Of a stretch of DNA of 64,000 nt, positions 244 to 19,875 are shown piece by piece. This stretch comes from Thermoplasmatales archaeon. Its GTDB lineage: Archaea; Thermoplasmatota; Thermoplasmata; Thermoplasmatales; Thermoplasmataceae. Position 1 is the first letter of the stretch. Each line of letters begins with the position of its first letter. The notes under the pieces were generated by a model that saw nothing but the letters and a program-made list of their open reading frames with translations, did not search any database and was not told the origin of the DNA. The stretch lies in NCBI GenBank assembly GCA_014874365.1, contig JACWAH010000002.1, positions 1-64,000 of the forward strand, in the 5' to 3' direction. The position numbers were made by a program, and so were the translations under genes.

Positions 244-781
244 TGTAATTGAGGGAATAGCAATATTCCCTCCTAATTCCTGGCTTGCCCTGTTTTCACC
301 ATCAAGCTATGAGGAATTACCTTTTTCCACATCCGAATACTGGAAATCGTTAGAGATTATCCTTGCCAATTACGTAATGCACGATGATGGCAAAATCGAT
401 TATATTGACGGGCCTGCAGACAGGAAACCTATCATTGCAAACGACATAAGATACATCGGAAAGGAATCGAATAACCTTGATGAGACTACTTTAACAAGTC
501 TTGATAACGATACCTATTTGGAAAACGAGAATCTTGCAGAATTCAAGGAATGGGTTTTATCACTCAAGTCTAAGGAAGTCAAAACATTAGGTATCTCGGA
601 ATGTGGTTTGAGAAATTTCAAAAATAAAATCAGGAATGGCAATGGATTGAAAAACAAATCAAAGATTACCGAGATACTTCTCGAAAAATATTTGAAAGCT
701 GCCAAGATCGAAAAAAATTCTAAAATTGAGGAAATTTGCAAGCTATCTGAGGAACAATATCTTACTGTTAAACTTCCATAA
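230..781 (+). pseudogene. 5'-truncated gene fragment with a C-terminal helix-turn-helix-like stretch
   Basis: The frame is open from 230 to the stop at 781, but the first ATG is at 377 (134 residues from there). The translation before this ATG (WLALFSPSSYEEL, then LPFSTSEYWKSLEIILANYV) looks like real protein, so the natural start seems lost and the fragment is the C-terminal part of a longer protein. The region around residue 75-95 counted from 377 (LGISECGLRNFKNKIRNG) has the shape of a helix-turn-helix. The family is not recognised. It directly follows the surface protein stop with no obvious promoter. It could still be a short expressed gene from 377. Confidence 0.4.
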
Positions 782-11291: not shown

Positions 11292-11605
11292 GCATATTTT
11301 ACAACTGTGTCACTGCTCCTTTTTGCGTAAACCTTGCCTTGTTCCCTCATTATGGACTTTGGCTCAAATAATGGTTAAGAAACCTTCATTTTCTATATAT
11401 TGATGTCAGATTTCTCTAAAAGATAGAATTAAATGATGAAAAACGAATACTCTATCTGAAACGCTGTAAAATGTTCAATTTTTAAATCCCCAGGAAACTA
11501 CAAAATATTTCTATAAAAATTGGAGGTCTATCGGAAATCTCTTAGGTTGGTCTATTATTTGTTTGCCATTATCTTATATTGAAAATTGCTGTATTACACT
11601 CGCAA
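11292..11605. other. AT-rich intergenic region upstream of the pilin gene
   Basis: About 310 bases with no credible ORF and strikingly AT-rich compared with neighbours. It leads into the pilin promoter. No RNA gene recognised. Confidence 0.4.
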
Positions 11606-11616
11606 GATATAAATAG
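11606..11616 (+). promoter_or_regulatory. TATA box of the pilin gene
   Basis: GATATAAATAG lies about 25-34 nt before the ATG at 11640, with no Shine-Dalgarno, fitting a leaderless transcript. Confidence 0.55.
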
Positions 11617-11639: not shown

Positions 11640-12173
11640 ATGAAAACAAAAGGGTTAATGCCTGTGATTGAGAAAAAAGACAAAGCTGTTTCACCTATAA
11701 TAGCAACAATATTATTGGTGGCAATAACTGTTATTCTGGCTAGCACGCTTTATTTGGCCCTTGGTGGATTCTTTAGCACAAAAACCACCTCAACACCAAC
11801 TGTTGCGATTGGTGCTACGAATACTAGTAGTTCCACGACCGCGTTCACCTATTCCATAACTATAGGTAGCCCTAGCTCAAATACGATAAGCTGGAGTTCC
11901 ACAGCGTGGATTGTGACTCTTGGCAGTACTCTTGTAACGGTTAGTTGGAGTAGTGCTACTACTGGCTGGACAGCAACTTTAACATCAACCGAAACAACAG
12001 CAGGATTATCCAGCATAGGTGTTAGCGCTCCTACAGGCACCTATGTAGCTGGTGGCGAAGCGTTGACATTAAACATAGCCTATACTGCTTACCCTCCTGG
12101 TTACGTTATTTCCACTCTAGCATTCAACTTAATAGGATCTAACGGCGGACAGATGGGAACAATCAGTCTTTAA
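11640..12173 (+). CDS. Archaeal type IV pilin (class III signal peptide, N-terminal DUF1628-like)
   Basis: A 177-residue pilin-like subunit. The N-terminus is IEKKDKAVSPIIATILLVAIT: a short charged leader, a prepilin peptidase cleavage point next to the AVSP motif, then about 20 hydrophobic residues that form the filament core. The rest is Ser/Thr/Gly rich and beta-prone with many potential N-glycosylation sites, suited to an exposed surface. It stands alone 2.1 kb before the two-ATPase secretion operon, for which it is a likely substrate. A T-rich stretch just after the stop is a probable terminator. Met7 is an alternative start. Confidence 0.8.
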   Translation: MKTKGLMPVIEKKDKAVSPIIATILLVAITVILASTLYLALGGFFSTKTTSTPTVAIGATNTSSSTTAFTYSITIGSPSSNTISWSSTAWIVTLGSTLVTVSWSSATTGWTATLTSTETTAGLSSIGVSAPTGTYVAGGEALTLNIAYTAYPPGYVISTLAFNLIGSNGGQMGTISL

Positions 12174-12200
12174 TTTTTATATTTCCCTTTAATTTCTTTT
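12174..12200 (+). terminator. Poly-T terminator after the pilin gene
   Basis: Right after the stop there are several T runs, including nine consecutive T residues, as expected for archaeal intrinsic termination. Confidence 0.4.
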
Positions 12201-12387
12201 TTTTTGTTAATTTCTCTTCAAGCTTTTTGATTTTTTCATATTTTTTCCAATAATTTTTCCTTTATCGAAATAACCGTTATTTATTTAGCCTTATTCAACC
12301 AATAATATGCAATTATACTTCAATCGCGCCGGTAACTAATCGTAGGGTCATATGGACCTTTGAATTTGGCCCTTCTTTGCTGAAATC

Positions 12388-12709
12388 CTAGAGATAAACC
12401 ACATCAGGCCAGAAGGAGCAGGTTCTGGCCAGCAATTCCCTTCCAGATAATTTTAGTGCTGGTGCTATCACAATAACTTGCTTCTCCGGCCCGTTCAGTG
12501 AGGCACCGAGTCTATTTGAAAGGGTCATGCCAGAGCCAGTTTTTGAACGATTCATCAGGTCGTTTCCACTTTCCGGGACCATCGCCTGCTAGATCCGGAA
12601 TGATGAACTGCTATTCCAGATCATCCCTAATAGCATATTGAGGAATTTGATCTTTTGGAGGCCCTACCAAGGTCTTAATTGGAATAGTACCCCTTTTTGA
12701 AATGCCCAT
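12388..12709 (-). pseudogene. Decayed ORF with an in-frame stop and a frameshift
   Basis: Reading leftwards from an ATG at 12709 gives 32 coding-like residues (MGISKRGTIPIKTLVGPP...), then a TAG at 12611-12613, then 33 more in the same frame (ending NWLWHDPFK), then a stop. A second frame from 12582 to 12388 continues with protein-like sequence (GPEKQVIVIAPALKLSG, FWPDVVYL). Taken together this looks like one old gene of about 105 codons broken by a stop and a shift. Family not recognised. It may be chance. Confidence 0.3.
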
Positions 12710-12760
12710 CCCTTAAGAGAACATTTGAGTCAAAAAGCAAGTTTTGTCGTTGTTCACCTA

Positions 12761-13039
12761 CTACTCCAGTTCTCCCCAGACTTCTACTGATACCCCATAT
12801 GGAAGACCCGAGCAGGCTCTGGCAATTTCCAGCGCCTCTTTAGATGAACCAGCTTCGATTACATCAATCCCCCTCAGACCGAGATCACTCTCTTTTGTTG
12901 AGTTCCTTGAGAGAGTTATGCCACTTTGCACTTCGAATCTAATAACCCGGTTCATTTTCCATGCACTCCAGGCCTTCGCTATTTCCGCCCCCTTGCCTTC
13001 CGGGAACTCGCCCCTAAGATACATCAAGAGGTATTTCAT
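12761..13039 (-). CDS. YCII-like small protein
   Basis: A 92-residue protein starting at MKYLLMYLRGEFP, which resembles the N-terminus of YCII/YciI-related proteins, ending in GVSVEVWGELE, a typical last beta-strand. The middle keeps the ferredoxin-like alternation (GIDVIEAGSSKEALEIARA). Function of most such proteins is unknown; some are dehydratase-like enzymes. I chose the start at 13039; the longer reading starts inside the gap after the next gene. It follows the unknown gene at 13071-13487 on the same strand, 31 nt away, so they may be co-transcribed. Confidence 0.5.
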   Translation of the reverse strand: MKYLLMYLRGEFPEGKGAEIAKAWSAWKMNRVIRFEVQSGITLSRNSTKESDLGLRGIDVIEAGSSKEALEIARACSGLPYGVSVEVWGELE

Positions 13040-13070
13040 TGTCTCACCCACACCAGCTTCTTCACTGCCA

Positions 13071-13487
13071 TCACACTTCTCTCCTTTTAAAGTCATACTC
13101 TTCAGACCATGCCACATCTCCTTCTGCTTTCTTTCCGGTCACTTTCAATTCATTCTCCCCAACCTTCATGTACTCTACCCTGGAAGTAAATGGACTCTTA
13201 CTGTTCGGCAGGCTCTGGATGATAAACCCGGTACCAGTAATTGTCAGGCTTTCAAGCGACTCCAGCACAAAATCTCCAAAGTTGGAGAAATCGAATAACT
13301 CCGTCCTGGCTTCCAGCATGCCATCAGCACTGTCAAAATAGAAATACATATGCTCAGAAAAGAATATGCTGTCTGTACCTGAGTCACCAAACTTCAAAAT
13401 CTGGAGCTCGTCTGAGCCCGGTTTCTTCAGGCATATCATGTTGGACACGAAATCAAACGTGCTGTCTTTAGTAATAATTTTTTGCAT
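13071..13487 (-). CDS. Protein of unknown function
   Basis: A 138-residue protein without a recognised family. The start at 13487 (MQKIITKDSTFD) is favoured because GGAGAGG lies just upstream as a Shine-Dalgarno sequence; a start 13 codons earlier has none. The sequence is mixed alpha-beta, acidic, with no signal peptide or membrane segment and no Cys-rich motif. It probably forms a two-gene unit with the YCII-like gene. It lies in a gene-poor area with decayed ORFs, so it may be a recent arrival. Confidence 0.5.
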   Translation of the reverse strand: MQKIITKDSTFDFVSNMICLKKPGSDELQILKFGDSGTDSIFFSEHMYFYFDSADGMLEARTELFDFSNFGDFVLESLESLTITGTGFIIQSLPNSKSPFTSRVEYMKVGENELKVTGKKAEGDVAWSEEYDFKRREV

Positions 13488-13526
13488 GTCCTCTCCACTC
13501 ACCCAGCAAATACAGGAGTTCATCAA

Positions 13527-14125
13527 CTTTTGACTCTGGCTTTAAATCAGAATATTTTTCCATGTTTGTACAGTATTCTTAGGTATAAAATGCAAAAAGG
13601 GAGTAAAAGTATACCTGTGTTACCTTCACATATTCCCTGTTTACCACCTATGACTTTGCGCAGGTTACCGCCATGTTAAAGTCAATGGTTTTATGGTTCT
13701 AATCGCCAATCTATATTTGCCCGAAATAGCTGGAGTTAGGTTAATTCACTGGACTCATAAAGAAATGCCTTGTGTCGATTTTCATTTAGGCAAATTGAAC
13801 ATGTTTCTTGCTTGTATTACAGGTTCTTGATCGCTGGAAGCCGGTTTCCCTGCATTCGGTTTTTTGTAAAGAATTCTCGGAAGATCGTTGTAGGCGAATG
13901 CTTTCAAGGAGGCTCCCATCGCATCTTTTTTCTGGAATATCCCCCCTGATCATCATGGGATCTTTTCCGAATCCTTTCCTCCTGCATTTTTCGCTAATAG
14001 TAGTGTTTTAGTTTCCACATCATATTTATACATAAATATATATCAAAAATGCTAAGGAAGAGTTTATAACAATATTGCCAGAAGAAGCCTTTGCCTTATA
14101 TTATTTCATTCGATTTGTATAAAAA
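13527..14125. other. Gene-poor stretch downstream of tRNA-Ala
   Basis: About 600 bases without a solid gene. On the minus strand at 13782-13919 there is a 45-codon ORF (MGASLKAFAYNDLPRILYKK...) with protein-like composition; it could be a remnant of a longer gene. No insertion sequence ends or attachment-site repeat were found by eye. The region lies on the 3' side of the tRNA gene, where integrating elements often sit. Confidence 0.35.
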
Positions 14126-14197: not shown

Positions 14198-14286
14198 AAT
14201 GCGAGCGTAATATAGGATTACCTATAAAATTTGCTTATAGACTGTAATATTTGCATTGGCCCCAAATTATGTACTGCATACTTAAA

Positions 14287-14296
14287 GGATAAATAG
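14287..14296 (+). promoter_or_regulatory. TATA box of the two-ATPase secretion operon
   Basis: GGATAAATAG sits about 25 nt before the ATG at 14318. No Shine-Dalgarno precedes the ATG, so the transcript is probably leaderless. Confidence 0.5.
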
Positions 14297-14317: not shown

Positions 14318-15871
14318 ATGCCGGAATTTAATATCAGGAGAAGGGCGAGAACAAGAAGGCCAATGGTCAAGTCCACGGAGGCTGATAATCTCGACCTTGT
14401 CGACAGATATGAAGTAATAAAAGGATACGGGTCTGTCGAAATACTTTGGAACAGGAATACACTTGAGAATATTTATTCGGTAGTTGAACCAAGACTTGAT
14501 GATAACGAGAAACAGTTGATGAACATACTACCAAAGGAAATGGAGATGGTAATTCCTAACCTCAAGAACTTTTCCACCGAGTACGTTAAACTTGATGTCG
14601 GGAGACTGCTGGACATCTATTCCAAAAACTATGAGGTTAATGTGGGGGAAGAATCAAAAGAAAAGATCAAGTACTACCTGAGCAGGGATTTTTCTGGACT
14701 TGGAGCTATCGAAGTAATCGTTAAAGATCCATATGTAGAGGACGTTTCCTGTGATGGATATAACGTTCCAATTTTCGTATACCACAGGAAATATGGGTCC
14801 ATAAAAACAAACGTCAGCTTCAAGACAAAGGAGTTGTTGAACTCATATGTGGTTAAGCTTGCACAGCTTTGCGGAAAGGAAATATCCGTGAGCGAGCCAA
14901 TTCTTGATGGCGCTACGCCGCAGGGACACAGGGTCCAGGCGATATACGGAGAGGAAATTTCAACAAGAGGATCAACTTTTACTTTTAGATTGTTCAGGGA
15001 GAAGCCTTTTACTCCCGTGGAATTGATTAAATACGGCACTGCCAGCGCTGAAATGGTAACTTATTTTTGGTACATGATTGAGTATCTGGCTTCTGCCTTA
15101 ATAGCAGGGGTTCCTGCTGTGGGGAAAACGTCCACCATGAATGCAATGCTGATGCTGGTTCCCCCAACTTCAAAAATATTCAGCATAGAGGAAACAAGGG
15201 AGATCAACATTCTACACACTAACTGGGTTGCGACCTCTACCAGGGAGGCAGAATTCGAGTCCAACCAGAATAACACTGGAACCATGAGAATTGACATGTT
15301 CGAACTCGTGAAAATGGCTATGAGGCAGAGACCCACATACATAGTGGTCGGAGAAGTTAGGGGAAGAGAAGCATCTTCCTTGTTCCAGGCTATGTCAACT
15401 GGACACACTACCTATTCAACAATTCATGCAGATTCCATGGAGGCCACTGTTAACAGGCTGGAGAGCAATCCTCTTAACATTCCAAGGATAATGATCACTT
15501 ACCTGAACACAGTAATTTTCAACAAGTTCGTCAGGAGCGGTGATTCGGTGAGCAGGAGGATAACTGAAGTGGACGAGATGTCCGGTTTCAATACCGAAAC
15601 TAACGAGGTAGTATACAACAAGGTTTTCAACTACGATTCTTTTAGAGGGAAGCACTCGTTTATGGGCTACAGCAACTTATACAAGAAAATTCAATACATT
15701 AAGGGGATTGGCCCAGCTCAATTCAAGAAGGAATTCGACGAAAGGAAGCGTTTACTGGAAGAGATGGTGAGGTCTGATATCACCAATTATATCGACATTC
15801 ACAGGATTATCAGTACCTTCTACAGGGAGCCTGAAAAGGCCATGGCGCAGGCATCTGGTGGTACTGCGTGA
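14318..15871 (+). CDS. Type II/IV secretion system ATPase (GspE/PilB/TadA superfamily), first copy
   Basis: A hexameric motor ATPase on the cytoplasmic side of the membrane, 517 residues. Walker A is GVPAVGKTS (about residues 264-272), with the usual GTGSGKT replaced by a less common version. The Asp box region follows (KIFSIEETREINI), and Walker B plus His box are YIVVGEVRGREASSLFQAMSTGHTTYSTIHAD. The N-terminal domain contains VKDPYVEDVSCDGYNVPIFVYHRKYG, shared with the second ATPase. Its stop overlaps the next gene by 4 nt. It powers assembly or retraction of a pilus-like fibre, or secretion. It differs from the second ATPase in Walker A and in a longer insert before Walker B. Confidence 0.92.
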   Translation: MPEFNIRRRARTRRPMVKSTEADNLDLVDRYEVIKGYGSVEILWNRNTLENIYSVVEPRLDDNEKQLMNILPKEMEMVIPNLKNFSTEYVKLDVGRLLDIYSKNYEVNVGEESKEKIKYYLSRDFSGLGAIEVIVKDPYVEDVSCDGYNVPIFVYHRKYGSIKTNVSFKTKELLNSYVVKLAQLCGKEISVSEPILDGATPQGHRVQAIYGEEISTRGSTFTFRLFREKPFTPVELIKYGTASAEMVTYFWYMIEYLASALIAGVPAVGKTSTMNAMLMLVPPTSKIFSIEETREINILHTNWVATSTREAEFESNQNNTGTMRIDMFELVKMAMRQRPTYIVVGEVRGREASSLFQAMSTGHTTYSTIHADSMEATVNRLESNPLNIPRIMITYLNTVIFNKFVRSGDSVSRRITEVDEMSGFNTETNEVVYNKVFNYDSFRGKHSFMGYSNLYKKIQYIKGIGPAQFKKEFDERKRLLEEMVRSDITNYIDIHRIISTFYREPEKAMAQASGGTA

Positions 15872-17484
15872 GCGAAGAACCAGAGAGGGCGAAACTTGCC
15901 AAGAGGCGTAGAAGCTCAAGACCGGTAATAAACGAGCCTGCTGCAAATGCAGAAGTGGAAAACTCATCGCCGCAAGATGAGCTTCCCCCGGTATCAGCAG
16001 ATATTCCTCCCGCTGAAGCAGCACAAACTCAGGAGAAAATAGAAGAAAAAGAGTCACCTCCAGTAGATAAAGAATTTCAAGAGCAATTGGCCAAAAGGGA
16101 TGCAGAAACATCAGAAATAACGGAACCAGTGCTGCAGGAAAAGCCGGCAGAGGAGCCCAAAGAGGAAGAAGCTAAAAAAGAGGCAATTGCAACAGCCGGA
16201 CAAACTGCGGTTGATTTTGAGAAGTTTAATCTGGAAGCACCCAAAACAGAATTTGATGAACTCACTTACGAGGAGAAAAGACACAGGAGGAGCCGAAACC
16301 CACTTAGCCGAAAGGTAAGCAAGGATCTGATGGAAAAGATTCATGAAATAGACAGGACAAAGGAACCAGAATTTCAGGAACCAACCATCGTTACCGGTAT
16401 AGTTTCCAGGAATAAAACCGGGGGATCTTCAAAGGAACTGATTCGCAACAAGGCCAGAAGCAAGGATAGGTCTTCAAAAATAAGAAAGAATAAAAATGCT
16501 GCGGGAATTGATACAGTTCAGGAGAACCCCCGGGTCACAAAGTTTTTTGGCAGGGTAAGGGACGTTTCAGGAGTACTTTCTGTCACACCAAAAGTGCAGA
16601 CTCTTGAGAGTACAATAAAACCACCGTCTCCGTTCCTTAAGATTGCCCTGAAGATGTTCAGGGAATATTTCCAGGCCAGGGAAAGCAAGTACTCAAAACT
16701 GGAGAATACGCTTAGAGCTTCTAAAATGCCATACTCAAGCGTCCAGTATCTCTCACTTGCAGTATTCGTTTCCCTGTTAATTGCAGGTATTAGCGGGTTC
16801 GCAATAGCTTATTTTGCCTACCTGCTTGGCCCATTCTACATTTTAGCTATTGCAGGGGGAGCCATGGCTGTTGTTATCTTCATCACTATATTTTTATCCC
16901 TTCCAGGGTCAACTTCCAAGAAGAGAAAGAAGGATATTGAATCTAAACTGCCCATGGCCCTTGGTTATATTGCGACTATGGCATCTGCAGATATGCCTGT
17001 TGATCAGATCCTGTTTGAACTTGGAGAAAGCCCAGAGTACGGTGCCGTTTCCAAGGAGGCCAAGACAATTTCGCTTGCGACAAGGGTATTTGGCAAGGAT
17101 ATAGTGACGGCATTGCGCGATGGAGCCAAATATTCACCTTCGCCCAAGCTGGCAGAATTCCTTCAGGGCATTGTTACTACCGTAACATCCGGAGGCAACC
17201 TTAAGCAGTATTTCAAAACAAAGGCAGTCCAATACCAGGGAGAATTGAGCAACCTGATCAGGAGCAACGCAGAATCCATTGGCATACTCGCAGAGAGTTA
17301 TGTTACTGTAGGAGTCGCTTTCCCACTTATGCTGATTGTAATCCTCGGCGTGGTGGCTTCCCTTCAATCCTCATCTTCAGGCATGCTTGTTGTTTTATAT
17401 TTAATAGATTTGATGATTATACCTCTCATAACGATTATGTTTGCATTTCTAATATCATCAACAATAAAGGAGATCAAGATATGA
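15868..17484 (+). CDS. TadC/GspF-like membrane platform protein with long charged N-terminal extension
   Basis: The inner membrane platform of the pilus motor, 538 residues. The last half is a T2SSF domain: two membrane helices around residues 290-345, a cytoplasmic four-helix domain (SKLPMALGYIATMASADMPV), and two more helices at the C-terminus (about 475-535). The first 285 residues are unlike normal TadC: about 140 residues of acidic, Pro/Ala/Glu-rich sequence, then a basic Arg/Lys/Ser-rich part, predicted to be disordered and cytoplasmic. It lies between an ATPase and a second TadC-like protein, overlapping both by 4 nt. Confidence 0.85.
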   Translation: MSEEPERAKLAKRRRSSRPVINEPAANAEVENSSPQDELPPVSADIPPAEAAQTQEKIEEKESPPVDKEFQEQLAKRDAETSEITEPVLQEKPAEEPKEEEAKKEAIATAGQTAVDFEKFNLEAPKTEFDELTYEEKRHRRSRNPLSRKVSKDLMEKIHEIDRTKEPEFQEPTIVTGIVSRNKTGGSSKELIRNKARSKDRSSKIRKNKNAAGIDTVQENPRVTKFFGRVRDVSGVLSVTPKVQTLESTIKPPSPFLKIALKMFREYFQARESKYSKLENTLRASKMPYSSVQYLSLAVFVSLLIAGISGFAIAYFAYLLGPFYILAIAGGAMAVVIFITIFLSLPGSTSKKRKKDIESKLPMALGYIATMASADMPVDQILFELGESPEYGAVSKEAKTISLATRVFGKDIVTALRDGAKYSPSPKLAEFLQGIVTTVTSGGNLKQYFKTKAVQYQGELSNLIRSNAESIGILAESYVTVGVAFPLMLIVILGVVASLQSSSSGMLVVLYLIDLMIIPLITIMFAFLISSTIKEIKI

Positions 17485-18308
17485 AAACGAAGTTTAAGGC
17501 GCTTCTGGTGGCATACTTTGCAGCCATCGTATTCATAGTGCTTTACCTGTTCATATCTATAAATAATCCAACGGTTAGCTTCAACTATCTGCTGGCCTTC
17601 TCACTTTTCTTTATTATTATTTTCATACCGTATGGATTCTTTGATTCAGTGGAAATGAAAAGGTTTTACGACGCAGAAAGGAGGGTCCCTGATTTTTTGA
17701 GAGACCTTGCAGAGTTCACTACCTTTGGAATGCCTATCGCTGAAGCTATAGTGAGATCTTCAAAGGCTGACTATGGACCGCTGTCGGGTGAAATCAAGAG
17801 AGTAGCCGCGTTAATTTCTTGGGGGATATCTGTCGAGGAGGCCTTATTCGACTTTGGAAAGGACCTGGAATCCGAGAATATTATCAGGGCTGGAAAAATC
17901 ATAGTTAAGGCGAGCGAATCCGGAAGCAACATATCAGACGTTATGACAATGGTCTCTGACTTTACCGGGCAGTTGCAGTTGATGAGGAACTCGCGTTTTG
18001 CGGAAATGAAGAACTATACAATGGTAATGATGATCTCGTTCGGCGTGTTTCTTTTCGTTATACTTACGCTTGACATCGACTTCCTGCCTCAGCTGGGTTC
18101 TGGTGGATTTTCGCTGAGCGGGTCTGGAGCACCCGTGAGCGCAACTTCAATTGAACAGGTGTTCAACATTGGAATGCTTGTCCAGGCTGGAGGTACGGGA
18201 ATTCTATCCGGAGTGCTCAGGGATGGAAGGATCAGTTCCGGCATAATGTTGTCGGGAATTCTATTGGCCGTTGGCCTCGCAATTCTTTTAATGATAAACG
18301 TGGTGTGA
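17481..18308 (+). CDS. TadC/GspF-like membrane platform protein, short form
   Basis: A second T2SSF-type platform subunit, 275 residues. Helices near residues 8-28 and 33-53 are followed by the cytoplasmic domain (RRVPDFLRDLAEFTTFGMPIAEAI, KIIVKASESGSNISDVM), then helices at about 180-205 and two near the C-terminus. It resembles the second half of long FlaJ/TadC proteins, so with the preceding gene it may form a two-part platform. It starts 4 nt before the end of the previous gene, and the second ATPase starts 1 nt after its stop. Tight spacing indicates one operon and a fixed stoichiometry. Confidence 0.85.
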   Translation: MKTKFKALLVAYFAAIVFIVLYLFISINNPTVSFNYLLAFSLFFIIIFIPYGFFDSVEMKRFYDAERRVPDFLRDLAEFTTFGMPIAEAIVRSSKADYGPLSGEIKRVAALISWGISVEEALFDFGKDLESENIIRAGKIIVKASESGSNISDVMTMVSDFTGQLQLMRNSRFAEMKNYTMVMMISFGVFLFVILTLDIDFLPQLGSGGFSLSGSGAPVSATSIEQVFNIGMLVQAGGTGILSGVLRDGRISSGIMLSGILLAVGLAILLMINVV

Positions 18309-18309
18309 A

Positions 18310-19875
18310 ATGCTAAGGAGAAATAGAAGAAAACAAGATACATCGATGGAGATTAAGCTCTCCGAGAATTCAGAACCGGACGACCTGTCTTTCGAGGAAA
18401 TTGAACCAGGCCTGGTTTACTCCAGAGTTTTTGTTAACAAAGTCGACCAGTCGATTAATTACCACCTGATTGAACCGTATATCGATGCTGAGATGATTGA
18501 TGCCATCGAGGACATAAAGGAACTTATCATTGACACGGTTGCAGAAAGCAGAACGGCCAGTGAAAGCAGGAAAGCCGATTTTGAAGGCGTATACAATAAT
18601 GCGGTGAAAGCCCTGAGGATTGAGTTTTTACCTCAGGAAATGACAGTAGTTCATTATTACGTTCACAGGGACATCGTAGGTTTTGGCCAGATTGACGGAC
18701 TCATGAGAGACCAGGACATTGAGGATGTGTCATGCGACGCGCCTAAAGTCCCGGTTTTTGCCTTCCACAGGACTCATGGCTTTATTCCGACCAATGTAGT
18801 ATTCAAGGATGAAGATATACTGAATACTTATGTCAAGAGGGTTGTCCAGGATTCTGGGAAGCACATTTCTATCTCCGTCCCCATCATTGATACGACCCTG
18901 AAAGATGGATCAAGACTCCAGGCTTCACTGGGGCATTACATTACCAACAACGGCCCGGCTTTCACAGTCAGGAAATTCAAGGCAAATCCATTGAGCCCGG
19001 TAAGCCTGGTTATGGCAAATACTGTTTCGGCACGAATTGTTGCCTACCTATGGACAATTACCGAATATGGTGCGAACATAATGGTTGCAGGCGGAACCGG
19101 TTCCGGTAAAACGACCCTGCTAAATGCCATATTGCTTTTCATTCCTCCGCAAATGAAGGTAGTCAGTATCGAGGATACCAGGGAAATAAACATCCCGCAT
19201 GAAAACTGGATTGCAATGGTGACGAGACCGGGTTTTGGAGACTTTAACCCTGAAACAGGCAAGAGAGGAGGGGAGATTGATATGTTTGACCTTCTGGCTG
19301 CCTCACTCAGGCAGAGACCCAACTACGTCATCATAGGGGAGGTGAGAGGGAAAGAGGCTTTCACTGTCTTCCAGGCAATGTCGGCAGGAAGGTATGGTTT
19401 TGGAACTTTCCATGCTGAAGACCCAAAAACGCTCATACACAGGCTGGAATCTCCTCCAATCAATATTCCGAGAACACTCATCACTTCCCTGGACGTGATT
19501 ATCATGCAGTCGCAGATCAGTTACAACCAGAAACTTGTCCGGAGGTCGGTATCAGTCTCGGAATTGACTGGACTCGATCCTGGTTCCAATGACATTGTGG
19601 TCAACAACATATTCAAATGGACCCCAACCAATGATACATTCACTTTCAGCGGCTTCAGCTACGTTTTAAACAGGATAGCGCAGAGAATAGGCAAAACCGA
19701 GGCAGAACTTGAAAGGGAAGTCGAGACAAGGGAGCTCATCCTTACCAGGATGATTGAGAACAAGTTCTACACTTACAAGGACGTAACGAGGATGATAACT
19801 CTATTCTACAAGGACAGGGAAACTTTGCTCAAGGAACTGAAAATATCCGGCGCACCCATTGAAGGTGTACCTTAA
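18310..19875 (+). CDS. Type II/IV secretion system ATPase (GspE/PilB/TadA superfamily), second copy
   Basis: A second motor ATPase, 521 residues, with canonical Walker A GGTGSGKTT (about residue 260), KVVSIEDTREINI, and YVIIGEVRGKEAFTVFQAMSAGRYGFGTFHAED. The N-terminal domain shares DIEDVSCDAPKVPVFAFHRTHG with the first ATPase, so they are paralogues, but the Walker A and the residues after the His box differ, suggesting different jobs. It is the last gene of the operon; the convergent antiporter gene ends one nt later. Whether it extends, retracts or forms a mixed hexamer with the first ATPase cannot be told here. Confidence 0.92.
   Translation: MLRRNRRKQDTSMEIKLSENSEPDDLSFEEIEPGLVYSRVFVNKVDQSINYHLIEPYIDAEMIDAIEDIKELIIDTVAESRTASESRKADFEGVYNNAVKALRIEFLPQEMTVVHYYVHRDIVGFGQIDGLMRDQDIEDVSCDAPKVPVFAFHRTHGFIPTNVVFKDEDILNTYVKRVVQDSGKHISISVPIIDTTLKDGSRLQASLGHYITNNGPAFTVRKFKANPLSPVSLVMANTVSARIVAYLWTITEYGANIMVAGGTGSGKTTLLNAILLFIPPQMKVVSIEDTREINIPHENWIAMVTRPGFGDFNPETGKRGGEIDMFDLLAASLRQRPNYVIIGEVRGKEAFTVFQAMSAGRYGFGTFHAEDPKTLIHRLESPPINIPRTLITSLDVIIMQSQISYNQKLVRRSVSVSELTGLDPGSNDIVVNNIFKWTPTNDTFTFSGFSYVLNRIAQRIGKTEAELEREVETRELILTRMIENKFYTYKDVTRMITLFYKDRETLLKELKISGAPIEGVP

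Follow-up and report, generated by a model that had tools for sequence, protein, structure and literature searches.

Two paralogous motor ATPases and a split platform in the CdiP-type pilus operon of a Thermoplasmatales archaeon and across its class

Background

Why should an archaeal pilus keep two motor ATPases? This question is raised by the window studied here, i.e., the whole stretch of 64,000 nucleotides from a Thermoplasmatales archaeon (contig JACWAH010000002.1, positions 1 to 64,000), which contains at positions 14318-19875 an operon of four genes, two paralogous secretion ATPases (E1 and E2) flanking the two parts of a TadC/PilC-like membrane platform (Fa and Fb). A previous sequence-only reading of the same stretch had rated this layout as unusual and had proposed for the two ATPases a pair of the PilB/PilT kind, a mixed hexamer, or a double machine. 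In our assessment, the operon quite likely codes for motor and platform of a CdiP-type (Thermoplasmata) type IV pilus, with two active, non-redundant, and anciently separated ATPases on one platform and for one pilus. The kind of machine is known; new are its conservation across the class and the finding that both motors are intact and distinctly marked.

The operon and its platform

The following genes constitute the operon:

14318-15871, plus strand: E1, FlaI/GspE2-type secretion ATPase, orthologue of CdiPE1; 517 amino acids; T2SSE (Pfam) 3.9e-28
15868-17484, plus strand: Fa, N-terminal half of the split TadC/PilC-like membrane platform (CdiPFa); 538 amino acids; T2SSF 3.2e-12 at residues 365-492
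17481-18308, plus strand: Fb, C-terminal half of the split platform (CdiPFb); 275 amino acids; T2SSF 3.0e-16 at residues 72-195
18310-19875, plus strand: E2, second FlaI/GspE2-type ATPase, orthologue of CdiPE2; 521 amino acids; T2SSE (Pfam) 7.7e-30

E1 overlaps Fa and Fa overlaps Fb by 4 nt each, and a gap of 1 nt separates Fb from E2. Gene order, coordinates, and junctions are thus as described in the sequence-only reading, and the Pfam and NCBIfam matches bear out its identification of the locus as the motor operon of a type IV pilus, in which the two ATPases are paralogues and the TadC-like platform is split. Concerning the platform, Fa covers positions 9-248 and Fb positions 261-437 of the UpsF model (484 positions), and in the ArlJ model (555 positions) the respective parts are 6-240 and 271-449 (both NCBIfam). 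Since the coverage of the two models splits in this way, Fa corresponds to the N-terminal and Fb to the C-terminal half of the fused archaeal platform, and both together would form one platform equivalent to the fused AapF/ArlJ.

In the genome of the window (1.48 Mb, 26 contigs, 96% complete), a whole-genome domain search yielded no further strong T2SSE match and no further T2SSF domain beyond the operon, which is therefore the sole recognisable pilus motor, an archaellum motor being absent.

Family assignment and conserved residues of the two ATPases

Both ATPases possess the features of the FlaI/GspE2 family (Walker A, ASP box, Walker B Glu, HIS box, and arginine fingers). They match archaeal GspE (2OAP) and FlaI at E < 1e-76, with archaeal GspE reaching 1e-113, whereas PilT chains are found only at about 1e-4 to 1e-7, and the PilT/PilU model gives 38-43 bits against a cut-off of 319. 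Judged by these matches, neither E1 nor E2 is a PilT, and a phylogenetic pairing of the PilB/PilT kind is not supported. The NCBIfam FlaI model is matched at 4e-114 and 6e-122, with 382 and 408 bits, i.e., under its equivalog cut-off of 550. An archaellum remnant was also considered and rejected, because the FlaI scores lie below this cut-off and the genome contains no other strong T2SSE or T2SSF match.

Conservation was counted in 67 E1 and 67 E2 sequences, with residues numbered according to AfGspE. The Walker A Lys, the Walker B Glu, the acidic ASP-box residues, and the second HIS-box His are conserved to 93-100% in E1 as well as in E2, and the same range holds in both for the arginines R127, R208, R227, R312, R331, R333, and R343; an exception is E1 of the window's family, which has Glu for the ASP-box Asp295. 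Because both copies retain the catalytic motifs, neither ATPase is decayed, and the loss of catalytic arginines that the sequence-only reading had named as a sign of a decayed copy is not found. Both E1 and E2 would consequently be expected to hydrolyse ATP.

Beside these shared residues, each paralogue bears marks of its own. In most E1 sequences the N-terminal loop reads [EQ]-G-[HN]-R, as compared to DGSR in single ATPases, and the P-loop ends in GKTS instead of GKTT; the E1 of the window has the loop GATPQGHR and the P-loop GVPAVGKTS. In most E2 sequences the first HIS-box His is replaced by Lys or Arg, in the window by Arg (HIS box SAGRYGFGTFHAED), and this mark also occurs in the second ATPase of two families outside the class (f33 and f36). 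The motifs reported earlier were correct in that the Walker A of E1 is divergent in its variable part; it is not degenerate, as the Walker A sequences of E1 and of E2 both fit GxxxxGK[ST], and the N-terminal motif of E1 is DVSCDGYNVPIFVYHR rather than the PVF.FHR given before.

Distribution in the class and beyond

Among 89 genomes of the order, same-strand pairs of T2SSE ATPases situated 3.2-4.1 kb apart are present in most genomes of at least four families. Around 100 regions were fetched, and their open reading frames (ORFs) were typed with hidden Markov models built from the order. The exact order E1-Fa-Fb-E2 with short junctions was found in 60 of the fetched loci, belonging to many families of the class, so that the layout is far beyond chance and constitutes neither a local duplication nor a unique case. 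It is the standard arrangement in the class.

Linkage of the four genes is not universal: in most genomes of one family (f2), E1 is unlinked while Fa, Fb, and E2 stand together, both ATPases being retained (L075, L094-L097). In the search across the class, at least two ATPase matches were present in 147 of the 153 genomes with any match; the six genomes with a single match comprise four with contig-edge fragments or partial clusters and two in which the match is divergent or degraded. The entire machine has been lost from genera g2, g5, g10, and g12, in which no ATPase exceeds the cut-off. The ATPases of genus g13 are all distant relatives, and they are followed by a long Fa-like gene that matches weakly; this order is that of the archaellum motor, and the set may well be one.

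Outside the class, one family (f33) shows the order E-Fa-Fb-E and two others (f36 and f38) E-E-Fa-Fb, and many families combine a single ATPase with Fa-Fb (L173-L181 and others). Since many of these relatives get by with one ATPase on a split platform, two motors are not a prerequisite of the split, and such loci indicate that Fa and Fb make one platform and not two. The doubled ATPase was probably a later addition to a split platform with one ATPase. An arrangement in which each ATPase has its own platform half was considered as well and is weakened, as single-ATPase loci carry the same split platform. Equally, the double machine is unlikely, because the genome contains one platform pair and one recognised pilin, and the split platform occurs elsewhere with one ATPase.

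E1 and E2 as two lineages

In an IQ-TREE analysis of 50 sequences (LG+F+R4), all E1 form one clade (SH-aLRT 97.1 / UFBoot 95) and all E2 another (SH-aLRT 100 / UFBoot 79), and the two clades include the pair of genome G039 (L071). Within the window, E1 and E2 are 35% identical, whereas identity to the respective G039 orthologues amounts to 51% (E1) and 48% (E2). The residue marks described above agree with a single old E1/E2 duplication. An origin of E1 and E2 as ancient paralogues from one such event is favoured by these sequences, though not proven. A recent duplication with one redundant or decaying copy, to which the unusual P-loop of E1 (GVPAVGKTS) and the Asp to Glu exchange in the ASP box of the window's family might point, is highly improbable, given that the catalytic residues are conserved in both copies class-wide, that the layout spans the class, and that each copy is closer to its own G039 orthologue than to its neighbour in the operon.

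Comparison with known systems

The same four genes have been published for Cuniculiplasma divulgatum, so that the exact layout was already characterised and is not novel. Golyshina et al. 2016 (PMC5155288) described two ATPases (CSP5_0712 and CSP5_0715) flanking the TadC genes CSP5_0713-14, with the pilin genes situated elsewhere, and noted a likeness to Aciduliprofundum. Gaines et al. 2025 (PMC12448462) named the genes CdiPE1, CdiPFa, CdiPFb, and CdiPE2, solved the pilus by cryoEM (8REY), called the two ATPases unique among archaeal operons, and left the role of the second one enigmatic. As in the window, the ATPases of the CdiP machinery flank a split platform, the operon lacks AapX, and there is no archaellum; moreover, the pilin of the window matches the CdiPB structure 8REY. 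The window operon is of the CdiP type, with the same gene order, orthologous E1 and E2, and a pilin of the CdiPB kind. Genome G039 is probably C. divulgatum itself; its locus L071 shows the same gene order, and its pilins are about 533 kb away. There are some differences between the two: the pilin of the window is located 2.1 kb upstream of E1, whereas in C. divulgatum/G039 the distance is about 500 kb, the window Fa bears an N-terminal extension of about 200 residues, and the ATPases have diverged to the identities given above. With the distribution found here, the apparent oddity of C. divulgatum becomes a general question for an archaeal class, namely why two motors have been kept.

Concerning other archaea, the clade 2 locus of Aciduliprofundum boonei also contains two distinct ATPases and one PilA-like pilin according to Makarova et al. 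2016 (PMC4858521), the likeness being drawn from their description only; in many euryarchaeal loci of clade 2, they further found two tadC-like genes. The Aap machine of Sulfolobus acidocaldarius is likewise an archaeal type IV pilus with a FlaI-like ATPase and a platform, but possesses one ATPase (AapE), a fused platform (AapF), and AapX. Among bacteria, the Tad pilus shares the split two-gene platform (CpaG-CpaH/TadB-TadC) with one T2SSF domain each, and its ATPase CpaF is related (E 5e-44 to the window E2), whereas it uses one bifunctional ATPase (CpaF/TadA) and has a secretin and outer-membrane parts. The type IVa system with PilB, PilT, and PilU resembles the window in having more than one ATPase per platform, but differs in its ATPase subfamilies and in its fused platform PilC.

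Weighing of the two-motor reading

On the proposed reading, E1 and E2, both catalytically competent, would drive the one Fa-Fb platform and assemble an adhesive filament from the pilin encoded at 11640-12173; by analogy with C. divulgatum, the product would be an adhesion pilus. Joint work on one platform is suggested by the Tad motor, in the model of which a CpaF hexamer holds three CpaG-CpaH pairs, with one ATPase monomer per platform subunit (PMC12019362).

Several observations weigh against this reading. In a FastTree analysis of 168 ATPases, the fast-evolving E1 of the window's family was grouped with its E2. This grouping is read as long-branch attraction, because in IQ-TREE the E1 and the E2 of the class fall into separate clades, a division also borne out by the diagnostic residues; constraining E1 and E2 of the family together is 24.5 log units worse. 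In the AU test, nevertheless, both a tree with a family-specific E1/E2 duplication (p = 0.22) and one with E1 and E2 as exclusive sisters (p = 0.18) were retained. Two genomes (G193 and G205) have a single ATPase match that no assembly gap explains. Twitching was not seen in C. divulgatum, which leaves a retraction motor without a phenotype (PMC12448462). Finally, the processing of the pilin is unexplained, as searches of the window genome for a prepilin peptidase with PF01478, PF06847, and the divergent homologue of a relative (L215) gave no match. Across the order, PF01478 matches 9 of 89 genomes, and these weakly, and pilins are nevertheless present; prepilin peptidase homologues elsewhere in the order lie at the edge of detection, so that absence from the window genome is not established, and the enzyme either has diverged strongly or belongs to a different family.

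Arrangement of two motors on one platform

If both ATPases serve one platform, three arrangements would be possible: a mixed ring of both in alternation, two rings that act by turns, or a main motor with a helper. Candidate residues for testing them are those at AfGspE positions 205, 207, 269, and 358.

In the mixed ring, a single hexamer would be built of E1 and E2 in alternation, (E1E2)3, and would be seated on a platform of three Fa-Fb pairs, with two kinds of ATP sites. It can be proposed tentatively; that this alternating heterohexamer on (FaFb)3 is obligate and has been kept across the class is doubtful. The three CpaG-CpaH pairs on a CpaF hexamer in the Tad model would provide a precedent, and C3 symmetry has been found in crystals of archaeal GspE2 and FlaI (PMC5424180). 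In PilB structures, the P-loop residue T327 contacts T411 across the subunit interface, T411 being flanked by the HIS-box residues H413 and H420 (PMC5424180). T327 aligns with AfGspE T269, a match that depends on a residue offset and an assumed tag of 20 residues, and throughout the window's family E1 has Pro at this position; H413 aligns with H358, the position replaced by Lys or Arg in most E2. The paralogue-specific changes (T269 in E1, and H358 next to T411 in E2) would then fall at the interface seen in PilB, and alternation would place most derived marks in one kind of site and leave the other canonical, although the N-terminal domain of E2 is also derived (E216 to His/Tyr), which upsets this neat pattern. 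At loci with P269 in E1, E2 always has Lys or Arg at 358 (39/39), as compared to 11/21 at loci with Thr269; this co-occurrence is a hint only, since much of it is explained by shared ancestry with few independent events. If the mixed ring were true, each ring of this type IV filament motor would contain ATP sites of two chemically distinct kinds.

A functional analogue of PilB and PilT appears unlikely; here each ATPase would build its own hexamer, the two hexamers would take turns at docking, and the pilus would be extended by one of them and retracted or depolymerised by the other. Bacterial two-motor systems operate in this way, the possibility was raised by Gaines et al. (PMC12448462), both ATPases are intact with distinct marks, and archaeal pili are capable of retraction (PMC11178785). 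However, one ATPase gene suffices for retraction of the Aap pili of S. acidocaldarius, where PilT has no homologue (PMC11178785), so that retraction alone needs no second motor; in addition, no twitching was seen in C. divulgatum, as mentioned, and neither paralogue is nearer to PilT than to FlaI/GspE2.

A coupled helper motor would have one main ATPase, the other acting only together with it and adding force or speed, as PilU, a PilT-dependent second ATPase, does with PilT (PMC6762196). The retention of E1 and E2 together even where they are unlinked would fit such dependence, but the sequences do not separate a helper from a mixed ring, and the helper, too, is regarded as rather improbable.

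Pilin, promoters, and surroundings of the operon

Upstream of the operon, the window contains the following features, the two TATA-like boxes being read from the sequence:

11605-11614, plus strand: ATATAAATAG, resembling a TATA box, about 25 nt upstream of the start codon of the pilin; conserved in the congener locus L048
11640-12173, plus strand: type IV pilin; Pilin_N 2.2e-10, TIGR02537 2e-13
14286-14296, plus strand: AAGGATAAATA, TATA-like, about 22 nt upstream of the start codon of E1

The pilin gene that the sequence-only reading had placed about 2 kb upstream of the operon is real, is the sole Pilin_N match in the genome, and probably encodes the major pilin of the E1-Fa-Fb-E2 machine. 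Its top match among solved structures is 8REY (E 1.6e-6, residues 17-121), the C. divulgatum pilus deposited by Gaines et al. (PMC12448462). In a congener (G061, locus L048), an orthologous pilin (64% identity) stops 310 bp short of E1, and the interval contains only a tRNA-Ala gene on the opposite strand.

The box ATATAAATAG suggests that the pilin may have its own leaderless transcript, and AAGGATAAATA is the probable promoter of the four-gene operon, AAAGGATAAATA being kept ahead of E1 in L048. Separate promoters for pilin and operon would be in keeping with a TATA-like box near each start codon, and accord with the pilin being the most highly expressed gene in C. divulgatum (PMC12448462).

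Between the pilin and tRNA-Ala(ggc), the window contains around 1.9 kb of unrelated DNA (12184-14125) that is missing in the congener G061 (L048); two overlapping minus-strand ORFs within it (12761-13117 and 13071-13526) have no Pfam or NCBIfam match. In another congener (G062, L049 5200-6000), the pilin is absent upstream of the same tRNA-Ala, and a Pilin_N search of that genome found no pilin. A stretch of this region, QLLGHEDLESTSIYLHPSQ, resembles the end of a tyrosine recombinase, which hints at tRNA-Ala as an integration site.

Further observations on platform and motor genes

The N-terminal extension of Fa (window 15868-16700) is rich in charged residues, aligns poorly even among congeners, and is confined to the genus of the window and its close neighbours g9, g11, and g16, whereas Fa of other families has no extension. 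In one genome (L074, G004:C66, 5255-10151), a second, divergent E-Fa-Fb-E set is present in addition to the ordinary one; its ATPases bear the marks of E1 and of E2, so that duplication can involve a complete two-motor set. In family f38 (L169, L170, and L187), Fa-Fb is preceded by two neighbouring ATPase genes that seem to stem from another, independent duplication event; one of the ATPases has Lys at the position of AfGspE R127, and the first ATPase ORF is unusually long (756-1032 amino acids). In several single-ATPase loci of relatives from the phylum (L176, L177, L178, L183, L184, and L186), the Fb ORF comprises about 800-835 amino acids, including an extra part.

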